Shown one piece after another: positions 1,925 to 55,211 of a stretch of DNA of 64,000 nucleotides. Within the stretch, counting starts at the first letter, position 1. The number at the start of each line of letters is the position of its first letter. A model generated the notes under the pieces. That model saw only the letters and a list, made by a program, of their open reading frames with translations, had not been told where the DNA came from and did not search any database. The stretch lies in NCBI RefSeq assembly GCF_030913655.1, contig NZ_CP133189.1:1612001-1676000 (forward strand), written 5' to 3'. The DNA comes from Clostridium sp. MB40-C1. GTDB lineage: Bacteria; Bacillota; Clostridia; Clostridiales; Clostridiaceae. The translations under genes were made by a program, and so were the position numbers.

Positions 1925-3076
1925 CTAGTTATACACTTTAAAACTATTTAAAGCTCTCATCAAATTGTTTTTATTAACAGTTAAAGCTATTCTAAAATAT
2001 CCTTCACCATAAATTCCAAAGGCATTTCCTGGTGTAACAATTATACCATATTTAAATAATATTTCCTTGCAAAATCCCTCAGTAGTATAGTTGTTTGGAA
2101 CTTTACACCATACATAAAAGGTTCCCATTGAATCATAAAATTGTATATTTTTCTTTTTTAAAATTTCTTTAGCTAAATTTCTTCTTTCATCATATATCTT
2201 TCTTATATTAATTATATACTCTCTTGGGAAACTTAAAGCTTCCATAGCTGCATATTGAATTGGTTTAAATTGTCCTGAGTCTATATTAGATTTTACTTTT
2301 AATAAATTATTTAAAATTTTTTTATTTCCTACAGCATATCCTATCCTAAAACCAGTCATATTATATGTTTTTGATAATGTCCCAAACTCAACACAAATAT
2401 TCTTATCATATTGTAAAACACTAATATTTTTCTCATCAACTCCAATTATTTCATTATAAGCGCCATCATTGCATAAAACTATATTTTTTCCTTTGCAATA
2501 TTGTATTAATTCTAAATAAAATTTTTCATTAGCAACAGCACCTGTAGGATTATTAGGATAATTTATTATCATGAGTTTACTTTTTTCAGATATGTCATTT
2601 GGTATATCTTTTATATCTAAAAGATATCTGTTTTCTTCTTTTAAAGACACGTTATAAGGTTTTACTCCCCACAAGTATGAGCACTTTTCATAAACAGGAT
2701 AAGCTGGATTAGGCACTATAACATAATCGCCAAAATTACAAGTAGCAGGTATTATATTACTCAATCCCTCTTTTGAACCAATAAGTATTAAAATCTCATC
2801 TAAATCCAAACTTACAGAATACACCTCGTAATAATATTTAGCTATTTTCAATTTCAATTCTTTTATTCCTTCATAAGGAGGATATTTATTAAAATCTGTG
2901 CCCTCTAACCCTTCAATTAAAGCATTTACTATCTTAAGGTTTGTTTTTATATCTGGATCACCTATTCCTAAATCAATAATATTTTTTCCTTCGCTTATTA
3001 ATTTAACCTTTATATCATCAATTTGCTTAAAATGATATTCATTTATTTTTGTAAGTCTATCATTATTAATTTGCAT
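1925..3076 (-). CDS. Class I/II PLP aminotransferase (LL-DAP aminotransferase-like)
   Basis: Pyridoxal-phosphate aminotransferase of fold type I, 383 residues. The Schiff-base lysine is K236 in SKTYNMTGFRIGY; NYPNNPTGA at 172-180 and D204 are the other cofactor contacts. The opening IIDLGIGDPD with KYPPYEG nearby resembles the DapL/aspartate aminotransferase subgroup, but substrate specificity cannot be read from sequence. It starts at an ATG with GGGGGAA upstream. It stands alone between the purine permease and yicC. Lysine or diaminopimelate synthesis is one possibility; alanine or aromatic transaminases are equally close. Confidence 0.85.
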   Translation of the reverse strand: MQINNDRLTKINEYHFKQIDDIKVKLISEGKNIIDLGIGDPDIKTNLKIVNALIEGLEGTDFNKYPPYEGIKELKLKIAKYYYEVYSVSLDLDEILILIGSKEGLSNIIPATCNFGDYVIVPNPAYPVYEKCSYLWGVKPYNVSLKEENRYLLDIKDIPNDISEKSKLMIINYPNNPTGAVANEKFYLELIQYCKGKNIVLCNDGAYNEIIGVDEKNISVLQYDKNICVEFGTLSKTYNMTGFRIGYAVGNKKILNNLLKVKSNIDSGQFKPIQYAAMEALSFPREYIINIRKIYDERRNLAKEILKKKNIQFYDSMGTFYVWCKVPNNYTTEGFCKEILFKYGIIVTPGNAFGIYGEGYFRIALTVNKNNLMRALNSFKVYN

Positions 3077-3319
3077 GAAAATTCCCCCATTTAAAAATAG
3101 TTTACTAATTTATTTTATTCCCATATAAATTTTCTTGTTACTTTATAAATTGTTGATAACCTATAATTTGAAAAACAATTTAAAAACATATTCTTAGACA
3201 TACTAAGGGAAGTTTATACTAAATTTTCTATACTTTTTTAAAACTGAACCTTATAAATATAAAAATTACATAATTAAAAATTCCATATAGCTATAAATTA
3301 TGCAATTTCCTTAAATATA

Positions 3320-3384
3320 AAAATAGACTATGTTTTAAATTGTTCATCTCGTATATTACGAAAATAACAATTTAAAACATAGCC
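3320..3384 (-). terminator. Intrinsic terminator of the purine permease, 17-bp perfect stem
   Basis: A perfect 17-base inverted repeat (3328-3344 with 3366-3382, arm CTATGTTTTAAATTGTT) lies 20 bases after the permease stop and is followed on the minus strand by TCTATTTTTATA. It should end transcription of the permease. A related palindrome recurs at 18740-18787 and partial arms at 6264 and 47813, so this stem also belongs to a small repeat family. The rest of the gap down to 3077 shows no gene. Confidence 0.75.
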
Positions 3385-3403
3385 TTAAAACTCTATATAC
3401 TAT

Positions 3404-4768
3404 CTACATTTTAATTCCTGTAGCAATCAACTTAATTATAAACAATATTGCTAAAATATATATTACAGGAGAAACTTTTTTCTTTTTACTATCTTCTTTA
3501 GTAAATAAATTATTTAAGAAATTAAAAACTGCATAAGATAATATACCCATAGTTAATCCATCACCTATACTATAAGTTAAAGGCATTAATGCTATAGTTA
3601 AAAAAGCTGGTACTCCTTCTGTAAAATCAGCAAAGTCTATTTTAACTATGTTTTCCATCATAAAAAATCCAACTACTATAAGAGCTGGTGCTGTAGCACA
3701 ACCCGGAATAGCAATGAATAGAGGTGAAAGAAACATAGCAATTAAAAATAATATTCCTGTAACAACAGAGGTTAAACCAGTTCTTCCTCCTTCAGCAACT
3801 CCAGCTGAACTTTCAACATATGTTGTAACCGTAGATGTACCTAAAACTGCTCCACATGTTGTACCTATTGCATCAACAAGAAGTGCTTTTCCAGCATTTT
3901 TAACTCTTCCTTCTTCATCTACCATGCCAACTTTAGAAGCAACTCCAACTAAAGTTCCTATTGTATCAAAAAAATCTACAAAGAGAAAAGTCATTGCGAT
4001 AGTTAAAAAGGACCATATCTTTTGAGTATCTACTAAATATGAAAAATCTAATTTAAAAGCAATTGGTTTAATAGATTCATACCTAAAAATACCATCAGGT
4101 AAATATATATGATAAACCTCAGCAGCTAATTTAGGATTTAAAGCTGCATATATCCAAGCTAAAACTGTACTAGCTACAATACCCCACAAAAGAGCTCCTT
4201 TAATATTCTTTTTTGAAAGAATAACTATAACAATAATTCCTATAATTGCTATTATAACAGGTGGTTTAGTGAAATTACCCATCTTAACTAATGTAGCTTC
4301 ATCCTTTATTACAATTCCTGAATTAACAAAACCTATAAAAGCTATAAATAACCCAATACCTGCTGTTACAGCTAATTTTAAAGTTGTTGGTATAGCATTA
4401 ACAACAGCTTCTCTTACATTTGTTAAAGATAATATAATAAATATAATTCCCTCTACAAATACTGCAGTTAAAGCTACTCTGTAATCTACCCCCATACCTT
4501 TACACACACTAAAAGCAAAGAAAGCATTTAATCCCATTCCTGAAGCTAATGCAAAAGGTAAATTAGCATAAAGTCCCATAAATATAGTTGTCAACCCCGC
4601 AGTAAGACATGTAACTGTTAAAACAGCTCCCTTTGGCATTCCTGCCGCTCCTAAAAAATCAGGATTTACAGCTATAATATAAGCCATAGCTAAAAAAGTT
4701 GTAATCCCAGCTATAATTTCTTTTCTTACATCTGTTCCATTTTCTCTTAATTTAAAAAAGTTTTCCAT
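3404..4768 (-). CDS. pbuG: NCS2-family guanine/hypoxanthine permease
   Basis: Integral membrane purine importer of the AzgA/PbuG branch of NCS2, 454 residues with about a dozen hydrophobic segments. The signatures ITTFLAMAYIIAVNPDFL near the N-terminus, ASGMGLNAFFAF and LFVDFFDTIGTLVGVASKVG are characteristic of this branch. The start was set at 4768 because CCTCC at 4776-4780 gives a strong ribosome site; an upstream in-frame start lies inside the terminator hairpin and is not credible. A guanine-type riboswitch and terminator precede the gene, so expression should fall when guanine or hypoxanthine is plentiful. Confidence 0.93.
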   Translation of the reverse strand: MENFFKLRENGTDVRKEIIAGITTFLAMAYIIAVNPDFLGAAGMPKGAVLTVTCLTAGLTTIFMGLYANLPFALASGMGLNAFFAFSVCKGMGVDYRVALTAVFVEGIIFIILSLTNVREAVVNAIPTTLKLAVTAGIGLFIAFIGFVNSGIVIKDEATLVKMGNFTKPPVIIAIIGIIVIVILSKKNIKGALLWGIVASTVLAWIYAALNPKLAAEVYHIYLPDGIFRYESIKPIAFKLDFSYLVDTQKIWSFLTIAMTFLFVDFFDTIGTLVGVASKVGMVDEEGRVKNAGKALLVDAIGTTCGAVLGTSTVTTYVESSAGVAEGGRTGLTSVVTGILFLIAMFLSPLFIAIPGCATAPALIVVGFFMMENIVKIDFADFTEGVPAFLTIALMPLTYSIGDGLTMGILSYAVFNFLNNLFTKEDSKKKKVSPVIYILAILFIIKLIATGIKM

Positions 4769-4811
4769 CGTATAACCTCCAAATGCTATATTTATTATTT
4801 GTCCTAAAAAA

Positions 4812-4849
4812 ACAGCCACCTAGAATAATTGAGTATTCTAAGTGGCTGT
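4812..4849 (-). terminator. Riboswitch-controlled terminator of pbuG leader
   Basis: Inverted repeat with arms ACAGCCAC and GTGGCTGT plus an inner TAGAATA/TATTCTA pairing, followed on the minus strand by seven T residues. It lies between the purine aptamer and the permease start, the usual place for the expression platform that forms when ligand is bound. Confidence 0.85.
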
Positions 4850-4895
4850 AAATTTCATATAAATAGGATGAATTTTATATAAAATATCACTTGAA

Positions 4896-4963
4896 CACTC
4901 ATAGTCTTCAATTTAAGGTATCAGGTAGAAACTCCTAGCCCGTATTACTAGGATTATATGAGC
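4896..4963 (-). promoter_or_regulatory. Purine riboswitch aptamer, guanine type
   Basis: On the minus strand the P1 arms CTCATA and TATGAG enclose two hairpins and the conserved ATAATCC, TTTCTACC and GACTATGAG core. The base that decides specificity (position 74 of the B. subtilis xpt aptamer) is C here, in GACTAT, where adenine riboswitches have T. Guanine or hypoxanthine is therefore the expected ligand. It controls the purine permease through the terminator at 4812-4849. Confidence 0.93.
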
Positions 4964-5073
4964 TTTATTTCTTATTGAATTTTACAAAACTATAGTATCA
5001 AATATAATTGCATTTGTCAACCCGTTACGAATATTTATAATAGATTTTAGTTTCATAATTCGCAATTAATATT

Positions 5074-12373: not shown

Positions 12374-13240
12374 CTATTTAGTCCCTGTATATCTTTCATA
12401 TATTTTTTTCCCTATTATTCTAGCTAAGACATTAAATAAAAGAACCATTATAATAAGCACAGCCGATGCCCCATTAGCTATTTTACTAGCATCAGGTACC
12501 ATCCCTTCAGAATTCAATTGCCATATATACACTGATAAAGTTTCTGCTGGTCTAAATAAATTTAAAGCAGATCCATCACTAATTCTAACAAGTGGCGCAC
12601 TCATCCCTGCTGTATATAAAAGTGCTGCAGCTTCTCCAAATATTCTTCCTGCAGCTAAAATTATTCCTGTTAATATTTGTGGTATAGCTGATGGTAAGAT
12701 AACTTTTATCATTGTTTGCCATTGAGTTGCTCCTAATCCTAAACTAGCCTCTTTTACTTTTTTAGAAGCATCTACTATAGCACTTTCACTTACTCTTGTC
12801 ATAGCAGGTATATTTAAGATAGTTATAGCCATAGCTCCTGCAAAAATGGAATAACCCCAACCTGTCATATTTACAAAAACTAATAATCCAAATAATCCCA
12901 CAACTATAGAAGGTAATGATGCCATAGTATCAATACATAATCTTATAATATTTAGCACTTTACCCTCTTTTGCATATTCAGCCAAATATATGCCTGCTCC
13001 TACTCCTAAAGGAACAGTAATAATTAATGATATTACTAGCATATAAAACGAATTAAATAAATGAAGTCCGATACCTCCTCCAGCTTCCATTGATGGCTTG
13101 CCAAATAGGAATTCGGGATTGAAACAATGTCTGCCATTATAAATTATGTATCCAATAAGACCTATTAAAAGCGCCACTACTAAAACAGCAATTACATATA
13201 AAGTACCGGTAGCAATTTTATCTATTTTCTTTGCATTCAC
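12374..13240 (-). CDS. pstA: Phosphate ABC transporter permease PstA
   Basis: Inner-membrane permease, 288 residues with six hydrophobic segments and the permease loop [24 protein letters not shown] start at 13240 with GGGGGA upstream is preferred to the longer frame, which would overlap pstC by 85 bases. The start overlaps the pstC stop by one base (TAGTG), showing coupled translation. Confidence 0.95.
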
Positions 13241-37756: not shown

Positions 37757-40396
37757 CTATTTTGATAGATTTTCCACTATATATTGAACCTGACTTATTG
37801 CTTCATTAATTTTTTCTGGATTTTTACCACCAGCTTGAGCCATGTCAGGTCTTCCACCGCCGCCGCCGCCAGCTATTTTAGCAACTTCTTTTATTATTTT
37901 ACCACAATGGATACCTTTTGAAACAGCATCTTTAGTAGCCATAGCAATTAATTGAACTTTTTCTCCATCTGTACTTCCTAGAACAACTAATCCACTACCT
38001 ATTTTATCTTTTATTTTATCAGCTAAGTTTCTCAAAGCCTCTCCATCTACATCCTTCAATACTCCAGTAGCATACTTAATCCCATTTGCTTCTTTAATAT
38101 CTTTTATGATTTCATCCTCTGATCCACTAGCAAGTTTTGCTTTAAGTGCAGATATTTCTTTTTCTTTTTCCTTGAGATCATTCAATTGTTGTTGAATTCT
38201 ATTTAATATATCTTTTTGTGAACATTTAAGAGCATTGCTTATGTCATTTAAAAGTTCATTTTTACCTTCAACATATTTTAATGCATTCTCACCTGTAACT
38301 GCTTCTATTCTTCTTATGCCTGCAGCAATTCCATTTTCAGATAAAATTTTGAATAAACCAATTTTTCCTGAATTGCTTATATGAGTTCCTCCACAAAGTT
38401 CTGTACTAAAACCTCCTACACTTACAACTCTAACTTTATCTCCATATTTTTCATCAAATAATGCCATAGCACCAGATTCTCTAGCTTCTTCTAAAGTCAT
38501 TAATTGAGTTTCTACATTGTAAGTTTTCATTATATTATTATTTACAATCTTTTCAATTTTTATTAATTCTTCTTCACTTACAGAAGTAAAATGAGTAAAG
38601 TCAAATCTTAATCTTTCATCATCTACATATGATCCTGATTGATGAACATGTTCTCCAAGAACCTCACGTAATGCTTCATGAAGCATATGTGTAGCTGTAT
38701 GATTTTTTGCTATACTCTCTCTTCTATTCTTATCAACTTTAAGAGTTACAATATCTTCTAAACTAATTGATCCTTCTTCAACTTCTACAAATTGAACTAT
38801 TTTGCCTCCAATATTCTTTTTACAATCTTCAACCTTTGCTTTAAAGTTGTCACTACATATAACTCCTTTATCTCCTACTTGACCACCCATTTCTGGATAA
38901 AAAGGAGTAACTTCTGTAACTATAATTCCTTTTTCACCTTTTTCTATAGAAGATGCAAATTCATCATTTTTAATTATAAAGCTAACTTTAGAATCTAATT
39001 CTACTTTACTATATCCATCAAATTCAGTTTCTATTTCAGATGGTATTGTATCAAGAACTTTAACATCAGTTCCCATATAAGTACTTTCTTCTCTTGCAGC
39101 CCTTGCTCTTTCTCTTTGAATTTTCATTTCCTCATTAAATCCATCTAAGTCGATATCAATTTCTTTTTCTTCAAGTATTTCCTGTGTTAATTCAACTGGG
39201 AATCCATAAGTATCATATAACTTAAATATTTTCTCTCCTGAAAGTACCTTTACTCCCTCTTTCTCCATATCTTCAATGTATTGTCTTAATATTTCTATAC
39301 CAGCATCTATAGTCTCTCCAAATCTTTCTTCTTCTATGGAAATAACTTTCTTAATATATTCTTGTTTTTCCTTAATTTCAGGATAAGCTTCTCCTGAATT
39401 TTCTACAACCGTATCTACTAATTTATTTAAAAATGCATCTTGAAGTCCAAGTAATCTTCCATGTCTAGCAGCTCTTCTTAAAAGTCTTCTTAAAACATAT
39501 CCTCTTCCTTCATTAGATGGAAGTATTCCGTCGCTTATCATAAATGAAACACTTCTAACGTGGTCTGTTATTATTCTTAAAGATACATCAACTTTTTTGT
39601 CTTCTCCATATTTTACCCCAACTAATTCAGAAACCTTGCCAAGTATGCTTTTTATAGTATCCACTTCAAAGATAGTGTCTACTCCTTGCATTATTGTTGC
39701 CATTCTTTCAAGTCCCATACCTGTATCTATGTTAGGGAATTGTAATCTATTATAATTTCCTTCTTCATCTTTATCAAATTGAGTGAAAACAAGGTTCCAA
39801 AATTCAACTGCTCTATCCGCTTCTGATTTTTCTACAAAGTCTTCTGCTGACTTTATTTCTCCACTATCCTTGTAAAAATGTATTTCTGAGCACGGTCCAC
39901 AAGGTCCTACCCCATGTTCCCAAAAGTTATCTTCTTTTCCTAATCTAAAGATATGTTTTGGATCTACATCTGTTTTAGTAGTCCATAATTCATAAGCTTC
40001 ATCATCGTCTAAATATATAGTTACATATAATTTTTCCTTTGGAAGCTTTAAAACTTCTGTTACAAATTCCCAAGCCCAAGGAATAATTTCATTTTTAAAA
40101 TAATCTCCAAAAGAGAAGTTTCCAAGCATCTCAAAAAAAGTAGCATGTCTTGAAGTCTTACCTACGTTTTCTATATCACCTGTTCTAATACATTTTTGGC
40201 ATGTAGTAACCCTTTTACTTGGTGGAACTTGTAATCCAGTAAAATAAGGTTTTAATGGTGCCATACCTGCATTTATTAATAATAAGCTTTTGTCATTTTT
40301 AGGAACTAATGAAAAACTATCTAATCTTAAGTGTTTTTTACTTTCAAAAAACTTTAAGTAAGCTTCTCTAACCTGGTTTAATCCCATTTTCTCCAT
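37757..40396 (-). CDS. alaS: Alanyl-tRNA synthetase
   Basis: Class II aminoacyl-tRNA synthetase charging tRNA-Ala, 879 residues. The catalytic domain begins [16 protein letters not shown] and includes [15 protein letters not shown]. The editing domain has [11 protein letters not shown] with the zinc-binding [10 protein letters not shown], and the C-terminal C-Ala region ends in [16 protein letters not shown]. The start at 40396 has GGAGG eight bases upstream; a frame five codons longer begins inside this site. A T-box leader precedes the gene. Confidence 0.97.
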
Positions 40397-40432
40397 TTGT
40401 AATTCCTCCATACATAAATTATTTTTTTATAA

Positions 40433-40650
40433 AACAAAAAACTCTCATCTCCTTAAATAAGGGACGAAAGTCTATTCCGCGGTACCACCCTAGTTATATA
40501 AAACACATATTATTAAAAATATACGTTTATTATATCACTCCATTACACAAGCTCAAAGATAGCTTCAATATCTACTTTAAGAAGTTTTCACCATACACTT
40601 CCTCTCTGAATAAAGATCAATATCTACTCGTTCTTGTCATCACTTAATAC
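40433..40650 (-). promoter_or_regulatory. T-box leader of alaS, alanine specifier
   Basis: The conserved T-box sequence AGGGTGGTACCGCGGAA is seen on the minus strand at about 40476-40493, followed by a terminator stem (CTTTCGTCCCTT/AAGGAGATGAGAG, 40440-40471) and six T residues. Upstream lies stem I, with AGAGAGGAAG and GGTGAAAA; its 3' side reads GAAGCTATC, giving a GCT (Ala) specifier codon. Binding of uncharged tRNA-Ala should allow read-through into alaS. The remainder of the 40397-40803 gap has no gene. Confidence 0.92.
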
Positions 40651-40803: not shown

Positions 40804-41838
40804 TTAAAATAAATAATAATTTAAATCCTCATATATTACTTTAATTATAACACTTATAGGAACTGCCAAAATCATTCCTAAAAGCCCTCCAACCTTCTCT
40901 CCTATAAGCAAAATTATTATAACACATACAGGATGTATACTTACACTTTCTCCTATTACTTTTGGAGAAATTATATTTCCTTCAACTAATTGAATTAAAT
41001 ACAACCATAACGCCGTATATAATGCAACTTTATTTGAAGTTAAAAATGCTACTATTATACAAGGCAAAGCGCCGAATATAGGTCCAAAGTATGGTATTAT
41101 ATTTAATACTCCATTTAAAATTGCCAACATAAGAGGAAACTTTACTTTCAAAAAAAATAATACTACAAAAGTGAGTATGCTAATAAATATAGAAAGCATA
41201 AACTGGGTTATTATATATCTACCCAAAATCCTATCCACATCTTTATTTATTTTCTTAATTATACACCTACTGCTTAACGGAAATAAGGTCAGCATCTTAC
41301 TTTTTAAATATTTATTATCACATAAAAAATAATATGTAATTATAGGAATTACAAAATAAGATAATATATTTTCACTAAATTGAGCACCAAATTCAATTAT
41401 CTTATTAAACATCTGTAAAAATGAAGCTCTTATTTTATTGTTTATAGTATTAAAAATAGTATAAATAATTTTATTGTTTCCTTCTGGCTTTAACTTATAA
41501 TATAAATTTTGAAAATACCTTCCCATCTCTTCTAAAGTACTTTTAATATTGGAACTTTCTCTCACTATTGATGGTATCAAAATTGTAAACATAATTACTA
41601 TACACAATATTAGCCCTAAAACTAATAACAAAGATGAAGTTCTTCTTGTAACACCCCTTTTAATCAGGGCATTTTGAATAGGTTTTAGAGAATATGCTAA
41701 AATGAAAGATGCTAATAATAATGACGTTATTTCTGTTATTATAGATACTTTTAAAATAAAAAAAATGCAAACTAAAAAAATAACTATCCACAACAAGTTT
41801 TTTGCAAACTTTTTTCTTCTATCTTCTTTTATATTCAT
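40804..41838 (-). CDS. AI-2E family transporter-like membrane protein
   Basis: Integral membrane protein of the AI-2E/YdiK/TqsA family, 344 residues with about seven hydrophobic segments. LNGVLNIIPYFGPIFGALPCIIVAF and PKVIGESVSIHPVCVIIILL are the family motifs. Members export diverse small solutes or act in ion homeostasis, so the cargo is unknown. Its ATG overlaps the upstream PRC-barrel gene by four bases (ATGA), so they form an operon. Confidence 0.85.
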   Translation of the reverse strand: MNIKEDRRKKFAKNLLWIVIFLVCIFFILKVSIITEITSLLLASFILAYSLKPIQNALIKRGVTRRTSSLLLVLGLILCIVIMFTILIPSIVRESSNIKSTLEEMGRYFQNLYYKLKPEGNNKIIYTIFNTINNKIRASFLQMFNKIIEFGAQFSENILSYFVIPIITYYFLCDNKYLKSKMLTLFPLSSRCIIKKINKDVDRILGRYIITQFMLSIFISILTFVVLFFLKVKFPLMLAILNGVLNIIPYFGPIFGALPCIIVAFLTSNKVALYTALWLYLIQLVEGNIISPKVIGESVSIHPVCVIIILLIGEKVGGLLGMILAVPISVIIKVIYEDLNYYLF

Positions 41839-42326
41839 TTGTTTATACCTGTAATGTGATGTGGCATTGTTTTAAATTTTATTTTACTTTCATCTCCATA
41901 ATATAAAATATCTCTATCTCCTAACAATAATTGTCTAATAAGAAGCACTTTTTTTCCATTTATAAAGTTATTTATTAAACCTCTTGATAATATTAATCCA
42001 TAAATTTCAAAAGAATTATCATCAAAGATAATGTCTTCCACTATGCCCATATTATCGCCATATCTATCTATAACTTCCATACCTTTTAATTTAAAAAACC
42101 TTAATTTTTCTTCTTTAACACTTTTCTTAACTATCATATTATCATTAAAAGATATAATATCTTCTTTCAATATAGACATATTCTTATTTAATAAATTACT
42201 ACAGCATACACCAAACCCTTCTATATAACCTCTATTAAAATTAATTAAAATATCATTGATAAATCCCATTCTTTTCCCTTGTATATTCAATACCTCCATC
42301 AATAGAAAATCTTTGCTTCTATACAT
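41835..42326 (-). CDS. Two-module PRC-barrel protein
   Basis: Soluble protein of about 163 residues with two PRC-barrel-like modules (SKDFLLMEVLNIQGKRMGFINDIL and LKGMEVIDRYGDNMGIVEDIIF). The function is unknown; PRC-barrels often occur in proteins associated with sporulation or RNA processing. The start is uncertain: ATG at 42326 aligns best with relatives but has a weak ribosome site; ATGs at 42338 and 42413 are alternatives. The last would begin inside the 31-bp palindrome of family C and is unlikely. It is coupled to the AI-2E family gene. Confidence 0.7.
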   Translation of the reverse strand: MYRSKDFLLMEVLNIQGKRMGFINDILINFNRGYIEGFGVCCSNLLNKNMSILKEDIISFNDNMIVKKSVKEEKLRFFKLKGMEVIDRYGDNMGIVEDIIFDDNSFEIYGLILSRGLINNFINGKKVLLIRQLLLGDRDILYYGDESKIKFKTMPHHITGINK

Positions 42327-42389
42327 AAAATCATCCATTTCTACGAGTTTAATATGCTTAGTATTTCCAAACTTTATGAAAGTATTCAA

Positions 42390-42420
42390 TAAAATAATGT
42401 TGCGACACAACATTTTTCTA
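42390..42420. repeat. Family C 31-bp fused-end palindrome
   Basis: TAAAATAATGTTGCG meets ACACAACATTTTTCTA to form a near-perfect palindrome, as if the two ends of a family C element were joined. The same structure occurs at 55181-55211. It forms the left edge of the family C region before mnmA, 64 bases upstream of the PRC-barrel start. Confidence 0.7.
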
Positions 42421-42970
42421 GAGAATAGAAAATAGTGAATATAGTATAGGATAGGATAAGAGTATAATGAAAATTAATTTTTCATTATACTCTTTGTCGT
42501 TAATCTAAATAAAAGAGCTGATAAGCTCTTAAAAGCGGTAGCTTGAGGAAACATTACTAAATTTTAGATTAAGCATTTTTATTTATAGTATATTCTGAAC
42601 ATAATAAGATAAATGTTAAGTCGTAGGATGTAATAAGTTTTAATATTAAAGTAATATTATTAATACTATTTATATCATTACAGCATTATATCTTATAAAC
42701 CTTTTAATTTTAAGGTTTTATTTACTATTAATTTTATAAATAGTTTTTTAATTTTAAATACTGATGGTTTGTTTTAAAATAACTTTCTATTTAGTTTTAA
42801 GGTTTTCTGACCTAAGGAAGAAAATCATCCTTTAGTCTTCCTCATCTTCCCAATATTCATGTTAAACTATATTAATTATAAAAAATCAAGGCATAGGAAT
42901 AAGGTTTTCTTATATATGTAGTTAGCCAATTAAACTTTGAAGTAGCAATTAGAAGTACTTAAGGTGTAGA

Positions 42971-43057
42971 ATTCTAAAAATCCGTAATTGCAGGAATGGA
43001 CTCCTGCAGCCGAACTGCGTCATGGACGACGCATAGTGAGGGTAGGATTTTTAGAAG
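42971..43057 (+). ncRNA. Candidate TwoAYGGAY RNA
   Basis: Two adjacent hairpins have the same six-base loop ATGGAC: GCAGGA-loop-TCCTGC (42990-43007) and TGCGTC-loop-GACGCA (43016-43033), separated by AGCCGAAC. An outer stem TTCTAAAAATCC/GGATTTTTAGAA (42972-42983, 43045-43056) closes the unit. This matches the published description of the TwoAYGGAY motif, an RNA class of unknown function known from Clostridia and gut metagenomes. Strand is set by the loop sequence. It is noticeably richer in G and C than its surroundings. Confidence 0.72.
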
Positions 43058-43168
43058 GCTACGCCTTTAGTACTTCTTTGCCTTCTGAAGATTTAATGGA
43101 TAACTACATATATTTAGAAAAACCTATTCCTATGCCGTTACTAATTACTTCATAATATTCTTCTATTG

Positions 43169-44206
43169 CTAACAAATCTCTTCTATAGTTCCACCACCTA
43201 CAAGTAAATCTTTTGAATAAAACACTACACATTGGCCTTTTGTAATGGCTCTTTGCTTATTTTCAAACTCAACCTTAACCTTATTATTTTCAATAGGTAT
43301 TATAGTCGCTTTGCTCTTTTTCATAGAATATCTTATTTTAGCCTCCACTTCCATAGGAAATTCAAGTTTGTCAAAAGGTATGAAATTCACATTTTTAGCA
43401 ATTAACGTAGTCTTAAATATTTCTTCTTCTTCTCCAATTACTACATCATTTGTACTTGGGCGAATATCTGTTACAAAAGCAGGTTTGCCCAATGACAGTC
43501 CTAGCCCTTTTCTTTGACCTATAGTATAATTTATTATTCCCTTATGTTTACCTAATACATTTCCTTCTTTGTCAACAAAATTTCCTTCTTTAGACTTTCT
43601 ATCACTTGTCTTATTAATATATTCTCCATGATTATCATTAGGTATAAAGCAAATCTCCATACTATCTTTTTTATCATGGACTTCAAGTCCTATTTTTTTT
43701 GCTATTTTTCTTATTTCATCTTTTGAATATTCACCACAAGGCATCAATACATGCTTTAAAACATCTTGACTTAAACTATACAGCATATATGTTTGATCTT
43801 TTTTTTGATCTTCTGCAGTAACAATAACATATCTTCCATCATGCTCTTCTATTCTAGCATAATGTCCAGTAGCTATATAGTCTGCCCCTAGTTCCTTTGC
43901 TTTATCTAACAAAACTCCAAATTTAATATATTTATTACATACAGCACAAGGATTTGGTGTTCTGCCACTTAAATACTCACTTATAAAATTATCTATTACA
44001 TGATTTTTAAATGGTTCCCTTAAGTCAATAGTATAATGAGGAATATTAAGTTTCTCAGCTACTTTTTTCGCATCTCCAGAAACATCTACTTCTGAACATA
44101 AACGCATTGTTAATCCTATAACATCATACCCTTTTTCTTTTAAAAGATAAGCTGTAACAGAACTATCCACTCCTCCACTTAACCCTACTGCTACTTTTTT
44201 CTTCAT
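43169..44206 (-). CDS. mnmA: tRNA 2-thiouridine(34) synthase MnmA
   Basis: Thiolates the wobble uridine of Lys, Glu and Gln tRNAs. The 345-residue protein has the PP-loop GLSGGVDSS at 8-16, ATGHYARIE, and cysteines C90 (in [12 protein letters not shown]) and C186 (in SMEICFIP) at the positions of the E. coli catalytic pair. C87 adds a CxxC where the E. coli enzyme has aspartate, a pattern resembling Fe-S-dependent thiouridine synthases. Start ATG follows AGGTGATT. Downstream of iscR-iscS-iscU, so sulfur would come from the neighbouring cysteine desulfurase. Confidence 0.95.
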
Positions 44207-49670: not shown

Positions 49671-50744
49671 ATGAATTTGCCACCTTTAAAAATAGGCGAA
49701 TTGACCGCTAAAGTTCCTATAATCCAAGGAGGTATGGGCGTTGGAATTTCCCTTTCTTCCTTAGCTTCTGCCGTTGCAAATGAAGGGGGTATAGGAATTA
49801 TTTCTGGCGTTCAGATTGGTTATAGAGAAAAAGACTTTGAAGAAAATACTCTTCAAGCAAATATAAGAGCTCTAAAAAAAGAAATTAGGAAAGCTAGAGA
49901 ATTAAGTCCTAAAGGTATATTAGGAGTTAATATTCTTGTAGCCGCAACTCATTATGCAGAACTTGTTTCCACTGCTGTAAAAGAAAAAATAGATTTGATA
50001 ATTTGTGGTGCTGGTCTCCCTTCAACTTTACCTAAATTTATAAAAGGTACTAAAACTAAAATTGCTCCAATTGTCTCATCTGGTAAAGCCGCTTCAGTTA
50101 TAACAAAGCTATGGAAAAAAAAATTCGATTATCTTCCCGATTTAATAGTAGTAGAAGGTTCTAACGCAGGAGGTCACCTAGGATTTTCTAACGAAGATTT
50201 AGAATCATCAAATGCTAAAGATTTAAATACTATATTAAAAGAAGTTCTAGAAGTTACAAAATCATTAGAAGATAAGTATAATAAACATATACCCGTAGTA
50301 GCTGCTGGGGGAATATTTACTGGAAAAGATATTGCAGAAGTTATTAAACTAGGGGCTGATGGAGTTCAAATGGCTACTAAATTTGTTGCCACAGAAGAAT
50401 GTGATGCTCATATAAACTTCAAAAAAGCATATACTAACTCAAATAAAGAAGATATCATAATAATAAAAAGTCCGGTTGGTATGCCTGGTAGAGCCATCAA
50501 TAATAAATTTATTAAATCACTAAATGAAGAGGATCATAAAGTAAGAAAATGTTATTCCTGTATAAAACACTGTGATCCTTCAACAACTCCCTATTGCATT
50601 TCAAAAGCTTTAATAAATGCAGTAAATGGCGACGTAGATAATGGACTGATTTTTGCAGGAACAAACGCTGAAAAGTTAGATAAAATCACAACAGTAAAAG
50701 AACTCATTAATGAATTAGTAACTGAAGCTGAAAATAACCTTTAA
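49671..50744 (+). CDS. NAD(P)H-dependent flavin oxidoreductase (nitronate monooxygenase/FabK type)
   Basis: FMN-dependent TIM-barrel enzyme, 357 residues. The opening PPLKIGELTAKVPIIQGGMG, the GSNAGGHLGF phosphate/FMN loop, AAGGIFTGKDIAEVIKLGADGVQMATKF and the ending SCIKHCDPSTTPYC are characteristic. The cysteine-containing C-terminus favours the nitronate monooxygenase-like group over true FabK; no fatty-acid genes are nearby. Start at 49671 follows GAAGGAG; the longer reading begins inside the -35 box. The stop codon lies at the left boundary of family C copy 2. Confidence 0.88.
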   Translation: MNLPPLKIGELTAKVPIIQGGMGVGISLSSLASAVANEGGIGIISGVQIGYREKDFEENTLQANIRALKKEIRKARELSPKGILGVNILVAATHYAELVSTAVKEKIDLIICGAGLPSTLPKFIKGTKTKIAPIVSSGKAASVITKLWKKKFDYLPDLIVVEGSNAGGHLGFSNEDLESSNAKDLNTILKEVLEVTKSLEDKYNKHIPVVAAGGIFTGKDIAEVIKLGADGVQMATKFVATEECDAHINFKKAYTNSNKEDIIIIKSPVGMPGRAINNKFIKSLNEEDHKVRKCYSCIKHCDPSTTPYCISKALINAVNGDVDNGLIFAGTNAEKLDKITTVKELINELVTEAENNL

Positions 50745-51217
50745 ATAATGTTACGACATAATATTATTTAGTAACCAGATACCAGTAAAAGAGGTTTTTT
50801 CCCGGTGTTAAAAAATTCTTAAATTTAAAGGGACTGTAGCATTAAGAAACTTAAATACAATATACTGTTTTGGAAGTTTAAATTCAACACAATATATTGT
50901 AGAATCTATTATTAGTGCGACAGCCCCTTGTTGTTATTTTCAAAGAGCTGGTAAGCTCTTAGAACGATAGTTCAATAGGATTAGCGCTTATCCTCGATTA
51001 ATTTCTTATACTTTAAAATATTCTTTTGTCCGTTAGGACTTAGAGAGTTTCTTTAAAAATTTTGTTTCACATCTAAATTCTATATGACCACTCAAATCAT
51101 GAATAAAGCATTTAAATTCAAAGGTTTTCTGACAGCTGAAGATTTAATGGATAACTATATATATTTTAGAAAAACCTATTCCTATGCCGTTATTCATTAC
51201 GTCACAACATTTTTCTA
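50742..51217 (+). mobile_element. Family C ORF-less element, copy 2
   Basis: About 476 bp with no supported gene. Left end TAAATAATGTTACGACATAAT, right end ATTACGTCACAACATTTTTCTA (inverted). It includes a GGGACTGT/ACAGCCCC stem (50830 to 50926), AAAGAGCTGGTAAGCTCTTA, AAGGTTTTCTGACAGC and the shared block TTTAATGGATAACTATATAT through CCTATTCCTATGCCGTTATT. It sits between convergent genes, and each element end contains the stop codon of its neighbour. Confidence 0.75.
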
Positions 51218-54756: not shown

Positions 54757-55211
54757 AATAATGTTGCGACGTAATGAATAACGGCATAGAAATAGGGTTT
54801 TCTAAATATATGTAGTTATCCATTAAACCTTCAGCACACAAAGAAGTACTAAAGGATGATTTTCCTCCTAACGTCAGAAAATCTTTAAACTAAACCGTTT
54901 TTTCAGACTTTTATCGGTAGTATGTATGTTTATTTAGTATTTTATAGCAACTACCTTTTAATCTTAAGTTAAGAGATGACTCCCATAAGCTATGGCTTTT
55001 AAGAGCTTACCAGCTCTTTTGTTTAAGTCAAAAACAAAGCTCATAATGAAAAATTAAATTTTCATTATGAGCTTATTCTTTTACTTAATTCAAAGATTTT
55101 CTGACATTAGGAAGAAAATCAACCTCTACTAGTACCTTCCTACTAGAAGTTTAAATATCTAGCACCTAGTACCTAATTCTTAGAATAATGTTGCGTTGCA
55201 ACATTATTCTA
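54754..55211 (-). mobile_element. Family C ORF-less element, copy 3
   Basis: About 458 bp with inverted ends TAGAATAATGTTGCG and its complement; the right end (55181-55211) is itself a 31-bp palindrome. On the minus strand the order is AAAATCTTTGAATTAAG, an ATGAAAATT/AATTTTTCAT stem, AAAGAGCTGGTAAGCTCTTA, AAGATTTTCTGACGTTAGGA, then the shared block AATGGATAACTACATATATT to CTATGCCGTTATTCATTACG. It sits between the convergent hemerythrin and DUF523 genes. No gene was found inside. Confidence 0.75.

Follow-up and report, generated by a model that had tools for sequence, protein, structure and literature searches.

A palindromic MITE-like element of Clostridium sp. MB40-C1 probably carries a TwoAYGGAY RNA with predicted CsrA-dimer binding as cargo

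The window, i.e. the whole stretch of 64,000 nucleotides analysed from the genome of Clostridium sp. MB40-C1, contains a repeat element with a long palindrome and an RNA core in its right-hand part (Table 1). A PRC-barrel open frame (41835-42413, minus strand) begins inside the left end of the element, its native start being probably further in. Upstream of alaS (37757-40411), a T-box leader was recognised (40457-40649, minus strand) and a purine riboswitch (4882-4981, minus strand) lies upstream of an open reading frame without NCBIfam match (3404-4819); both are ordinary. Being short and non-coding, with inverted ends and many dispersed copies, the repeat element displays the traits of a MITE. 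Its end pattern, AATAATGTTGCGACR, gave 93 matches in the genome, compared with 18 for the reversed control. The ATGGATAACTACATATATTT block was found three times in the window at up to three mismatches (0.08 expected), two of these occurrences being located in sibling elements. Another module, which includes a small hairpin (AAGAGCTGRTAAGCTCTT and the following bases), is likewise conserved and was observed at about 42507-42560, and in the siblings at 50945-51000 and 54990-55030. Such elements occur with or without the RNA core, and both siblings of the window are devoid of it.

Table 1. Features of the repeat element and of its siblings, in coordinates of the window
Feature	Position	Strand	Evidence
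Whole repeat element, about 770 bp	42393-43162	+	bounded by end repeats
Left end, 25-nt palindrome with A and T runs	42393-42417		sequence; solo copies elsewhere in the genome
Long imperfect palindrome, 256 nt, arms about 75-105 nt	42885-43140		inverted-repeat blocks, fold, dispersed copies
Inverted-repeat block pair	42951-42983/43045-43077		88% complementary
Inverted-repeat block pair	42912-42937/43088-43113		85% complementary
Inverted-repeat block pair	42879-42910/43116-43147		78% complementary
TwoAYGGAY (RF01731) match	42938-43088	+	38.3 bits, E 2e-4 for 801 bases; gathering score 43
RNA core	42972-43056	+	closed by 12-bp stem 42972-42983/43045-43056
R1 covariance-model match	42978-43056	+	26.6 bits, E 9.6e-6 for 228 kb
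Hairpin 1	42989-43008	+	7 pairs (42989-42995 with 43002-43008), loop ATGGAC 42996-43001; matched stem changes among copies; both-sided changes across genera
Hairpin 2	43016-43033	+	6 pairs (43016-43021 with 43028-43033), loop ATGGAC 43022-43027; matched stem changes among copies
Right end half-site, related to the left-end palindrome	43149-43162	-	10/14 matches to the consensus end in the window copy
Sibling element, ends and right-end block of the same kind, RNA core absent	50744-51214	+	block and end-pattern matches
Sibling element, opposite direction, no RNA core	54757-55208	-	block and end-pattern matches

The original prediction placed the RNA between two diverged inverted copies of a repeat module, and the three inverted-repeat block pairs are in agreement with this. 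The palindrome has a predicted folding energy of -122.1 kcal/mol, compared with -54.9 ± 4.8 kcal/mol for shuffled sequences (z = -14.0, none of 200 shuffles being as good), and the fold of the opposite strand is similarly strong against its shuffles (z about -14). At the centre of the palindrome, the two identical ATGGAC loops were found exactly where they had been announced and the outer stem of 12 bp is perfectly paired. Both hairpins had been described as 6 bp long, which is correct for hairpin 2; the stem of hairpin 1 is one pair longer. The distance from GGA to GGA in the window copy is 23 nt.

Two adjacent AYGGAY-loop hairpins within an outer stem constitute the architecture of the TwoAYGGAY RNA (RF01731), and the window copy possesses it. 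A covariance-model score below the family threshold had been named beforehand as refuting this assignment and, taken literally, this is what the window copy gave, with 38.3 bits for a gathering score of 43; it is therefore absent from an Rfam gathering scan. The sister copy at C1:1717462 of the same genome reached 43.9 bits and passes the cut-off. A second covariance model, R1, was trained on 34 of the 59 RF01731 loci, originating from 31 genomes; most of the extra copies per genome were left out and so was, to avoid circularity, the own genus of the window (g1). R1 matched the window copy and located 31 of the 33 own-genome copies correctly, with E < 0.1 for 29. The copies L034 and L040 were missed and four matches elsewhere have E values of at least 1.1. 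As the training loci of R1 are themselves RF01731 hits, this result shows family membership and not function. The assignment to TwoAYGGAY is thus supported by the sister copy and by a model built without the own genus, the window copy itself staying under the Rfam cut-off.

The conservation of the core was analysed over the 33 own-genome copies. The GGA triplets are conserved at 97%, the hairpin stems at 81% and the remaining palindrome at 93%. Both GGAs are kept in 28 of the 33 copies and one is lost in the other five. The stem of hairpin 1 occurs as TGCAGGA, TGTCGGA, TGTCAGA and TGCCGGA, each with a fitting partner, and that of hairpin 2 as TGCGTC, TGGGGA, TGGGGC and TGGGAC, the changes being matched here too. 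In a cross-genus alignment, both-sided changes were detected at 7 of the 8 predicted pairs of hairpin 1; hairpin 2 aligns poorly across genera and falls outside the predicted structure. The stems of the TwoAYGGAY core vary with their pairing kept, and the GGA loops persist.

A search of the genome (one contig of 3.89 Mb) with a 266-bp query revealed at least 33 near-complete copies of the palindrome, the window's included, together with several partial ones, 40 of 88 candidates having been scored. Copies L044 to L050, which are core-less or partial, stand outside the 33-copy counts, and L044 and L045 are counted among the 17 recognised left ends. For the flanking genes a simple criterion was applied, an open frame of at least 90 codons. 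The right-hand gene is convergent in 26 of the 33 copies and ends between -6 and +13 nt from the right end of the element in 22 of these 26. On the other side, 12 of the 17 recognised left ends have a gene running towards them, and 10 of these genes end within -5 to +10 nt. At the 33 copies (L011-L043) and at window positions 43162-43171, the ends of the element abut stop codons, a few nucleotides away at most, the stop being often formed by the end repeat itself. Solo copies of the left-end palindrome were also observed (L083, 1461-1485 and 6823-6847; L084, 1840-1864; L088, 1071-1095; L091, 1146-1170), often against a stop codon. From its sequence, the 25-nt left-end palindrome looks like a two-way terminator.

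The position of these gene ends and the A and T runs flanking the end palindromes would fit an element that is chiefly a mobile transcription terminator placed at gene ends, with an incidental RNA core. This explanation is nevertheless very improbable, since it leaves the conserved GGA loops unexplained and since seven copies from a genome of another family (G090, see below) occupy mixed positions relative to genes. As a general rule of the RNA class, the targeting of gene ends was not borne out, these seven G090 copies being variously oriented to genes. In the own family, the ends may have termination as a genuine secondary function.

The mobility of the own family was explored by comparison with related species. 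In Clostridium brassicae (G007), the site corresponding to 54757-55208 contains an element that is turned round and bears the RNA (L241, about 12478-12900). The two elements run in opposite directions and the RNA is present in one of them, as if the cargo had been exchanged or the target palindrome hit twice. Beside mnmA, C. brassicae has an element in which other DNA takes the place of the RNA core. In Clostridium sp. ZS2-4 there is no element beside mnmA, and this genome is too diverged to give a junction. No exact empty site was thus obtained from C. brassicae, where elements are at the same sites in rearranged form, or from Clostridium sp. ZS2-4. No target-site duplication was detected in 15 copies of the own family. 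A TA target, suggested by the TAG/CTA edges, was dropped because the edge letters frequently coincide with the stop codon of the neighbouring gene.

Three transposase families were sought in the own genome and no transposase with the ends of the element was found among them: the IS630-type (PF13358) and IS110-type (PF02371) models gave no match, and two genes of Y1/RAYT type (PF01797) were detected, neither locus holding the element. One Y1-type, RAYT-like gene of 318 amino acids (L243, 1450-2406, C1:835401 region) is flanked by a palindrome with GGGACGGTTAATT, unlike the studied element. A copy of 1.9 kb, L025, was seemingly autonomous and proved to hold a nested insertion sequence (about 2290-3740) with a DDE_Tnp_1 match above the Pfam cut-off; IS1182/IS5 models are the nearest in NCBIfam, the best of them, IS1182, being below its own cut-off. 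Among plasmids and phages the palindrome gave no match at E 1e-5. As neither a target duplication (15 copies) nor, among the three families sought, a transposase with these ends was found, the case for mobility in the own family is made by the number of copies, their dispersal and the differences between species.

The carriers of the RNA were then compared in other genomes. Hits to RF01731 were found in 9 of 58 relatives, above the cut-off in 8, and 7 of the 9 have two or more; of 391 class genomes, in each of which no more than 7 candidates were scored, 26 carry hits and 17 of these have at least two. At 47 of the 59 RF01731 loci the hit lies between the arms of an inverted repeat of 40 nt or longer, a figure to which the outer stem of the model itself contributes in part. 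The copies share a block extending beyond the model in 9 of the 11 other genomes in which two or more loci were compared, the two compared copies of G138 and of G250 sharing no more than about the core.

The clearest case of mobility comes from G090, where the elements have terminal inverted repeats of about 26 nt and lengths of 121 to 598. We examined 27 of the 32 end-repeat matches of this genome; five of these loci have no recognisable right end and stand outside the 22 two-ended elements. In one of the five, L284, the paired loops are still visible. Among the 22, paired GGA loops are present in 14 and absent from 8. Exact duplications of at least 8 nt (range 8-11 nt) were found within 1 nt of the ends in 14 of the 22, namely in 10 of the 14 with the RNA and 4 of the 8 without it. 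As a control, 4 of 462 mismatched flank pairs reach at least 7 nt, the longest being 9. Target duplications around core-less elements indicate that the RNA is cargo in G090 and not a part of the transposition process. The RNA had been expected to travel in a repeat element, as cargo or as a working part: the dispersed copies of the own genome and the discrete repeats of other genomes, one family having terminal inverted repeats and target-site duplications, agree with the first point, and on the second the G090 data favour cargo. In G163, six copies were viewed and L261, L262 and partly L264 lie between palindromes of quite different sequence, which presumably recall RAYT-linked REPs. No fewer than three unlike carriers, those of the own genome, of G090 and of G163, consequently contain the RNA core.

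These carriers also bear on the idea that the two hairpins are transposition machinery at the DNA level, i.e. a recognition site for a transposase or for single-strand DNA, with an accidental RNA reading. Single-strand transposons have recognition hairpins at the centre of palindromes, a place similar to that of the core studied here, and the core is kept in 14 of 22 G090 elements. It is however found with unlike ends in the three carriers, and G090 elements with the same ends and target duplications can dispense with it (4 of 8). The link with csrA described below would also be unexpected for a DNA site, and we regard this explanation as improbable.

The distribution of csrA (PF02599) was analysed in the same 391 class genomes, 125 of which possess the gene. 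It is present in 22 of the 26 RF01731 genomes and in 103 of the 365 others (odds ratio 14, p = 1.4e-8). When the sample is restricted to genomes of 90% completeness or more, the proportions are 18 of 19 and 92 of 299 (p = 2.5e-8). Counted by genus, with csrA in at least one sampled member, the gene occurs in 19 of 19 RF01731 genera and in 58 of 203 others (p = 3.6e-10). By family it occurs in 11 of 11 and in 26 of about 75-77 (p about 3e-5); the highest family code served to estimate the number of families. These tests are not tree-based and csrA goes with flagella, so that lineage effects are possible. The own genome was counted as RF01731-negative because 7 candidates were scored per genome, which works against the link. 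In four RF01731 genomes (G226, G267, G306 and G368), one of them 98% complete, a lax search for csrA gave no match above the cut-off. The own genome contains three csrA matches (C1:752159, 2561030 and 2564073). Three were also observed in G412, the genome with the best TwoAYGGAY scores.

In the excerpted SELEX study of CsrA (PMC7652899), the selected sites present GGA in a hairpin loop, of six bases in the majority; ACA always precedes GGA, contiguous pairs are mostly four or fewer, and bridging by the dimer is best over 18 nt within a range of 10-63 nt. On these excerpted values, the 23 nt separating the two GGAs of the window copy lie within the range for one CsrA dimer. The AUGGAC loops of the window copy lack ACA, and so depart from the full consensus RUACARGGAUGU as given there. 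Together with stems of 6-7 pairs, longer than in most SELEX sites, this counts against strong CsrA binding. Loops of other genera include ACAAGGATGT and ACATGGATGT, which are close to the consensus.

Relative to the upstream gene, the copies are oriented almost at random (21 of 33 are sense) and promoter-like sites are at chance level (5 for 4.6 expected). With the loss of one GGA in 5 of 33 copies, these observations argue against a tuned sponge. They would also be expected of an ordinary MITE with a fossil, in which a single capture brought in an sRNA gene, the element multiplied to its own benefit and the RNA is now without effect, a history for which the absence of the core from 8 of 22 G090 elements also speaks. 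A dead passenger, however, would not keep matched stem changes together with its GGAs, within one genome and across genera, and the RNA is concentrated in csrA genera; we consider the fossil rather unlikely.

We therefore favour, with a probability of roughly two in three, the view that the element is palindromic, MITE-like and non-autonomous and that it carries as cargo a TwoAYGGAY RNA with predicted binding of a CsrA dimer. A copy of the element would most likely be transcribed now and then, by read-through or from an unseen promoter, and the resulting RNA would offer its two GGA loops, 23 nt apart, to one CsrA dimer. The bound RNA could then sequester CsrA, or bring it to the joined transcript, and the elements would in this way scatter CsrA decoys through the genome. 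As most of the sampled RNA-carrying genomes also possess CsrA, the repeats may be spreading such decoys. A wider proposal, which we make tentatively and at somewhat less than even odds, is that TwoAYGGAY is in general a mobile CsrA decoy, a CsrB-like RNA turned cargo of unlike non-autonomous elements across Clostridia, the copy number and insertion sites of which would set the level of free CsrA or place CsrA sites on new transcripts.

In the excerpts consulted for the literature, TwoAYGGAY was described as probably an RNA and not cis-regulatory, from the human gut, gamma-Proteobacteria and Clostridiales (PMC2864571), it was proposed in 2014 as a CsrA-binding RNA (PMC4333381), and its helices are treated in PMC11701678 and PMC7657543. 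Titles and abstract beginnings of the open-access literature searched contain no report of mobile TwoAYGGAY carriers or of co-occurrence with csrA. A class of structured RNA that has been on record since 2010 with no function assigned is here set in a context, as MITE-like cargo concentrated in csrA-bearing clostridial lineages, and this setting makes the CsrA-binding guess of 2014 directly testable. The mobile-repeat setting could also explain why no cis-regulatory role has been seen. If it is true that the RNA titrates CsrA, transposable elements would dose a global regulator and, in annotation, RF01731 hits should be handled as repeats. A warning about MITE-derived microRNA families, as far as its excerpt goes, was given for Rfam (PMC4383904).

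Compared with known systems, the window copy shares with the TwoAYGGAY RNA its paired AYGGAY-loop hairpins in an outer stem and the covariance-model similarity; it differs by a score under the Rfam cut-off and by its setting, the known entry being described, in the excerpted sources, as an RNA motif and not as cargo of a transposable repeat (PMC2864571, PMC4333381). With the CsrA-sequestering sRNAs CsrB, CsrC and RsmX/Y/Z it has in common paired GGA-loop hairpins spaced for one dimer, whereas the window family has two sites per copy in many dispersed copies of a mobile element, and its CsrA binding is predicted. The elements resemble bacterial MITEs in being short and gene-free with inverted ends and many copies, and in G090 by target duplications of 8-11 nt; they are distinguished from them by their cargo, a structured RNA whose conservation extends over unlike carriers, and, in the own family, by the absence of target duplication in 15 copies. 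Finally, SINEs and MITE-derived microRNA families of eukaryotes are likewise non-coding RNA families that are dispersed repeats, according to the excerpt of PMC4383904, whereas the present family is bacterial and carries a presumed protein-binding RNA as cargo, being neither a retroelement nor a microRNA.
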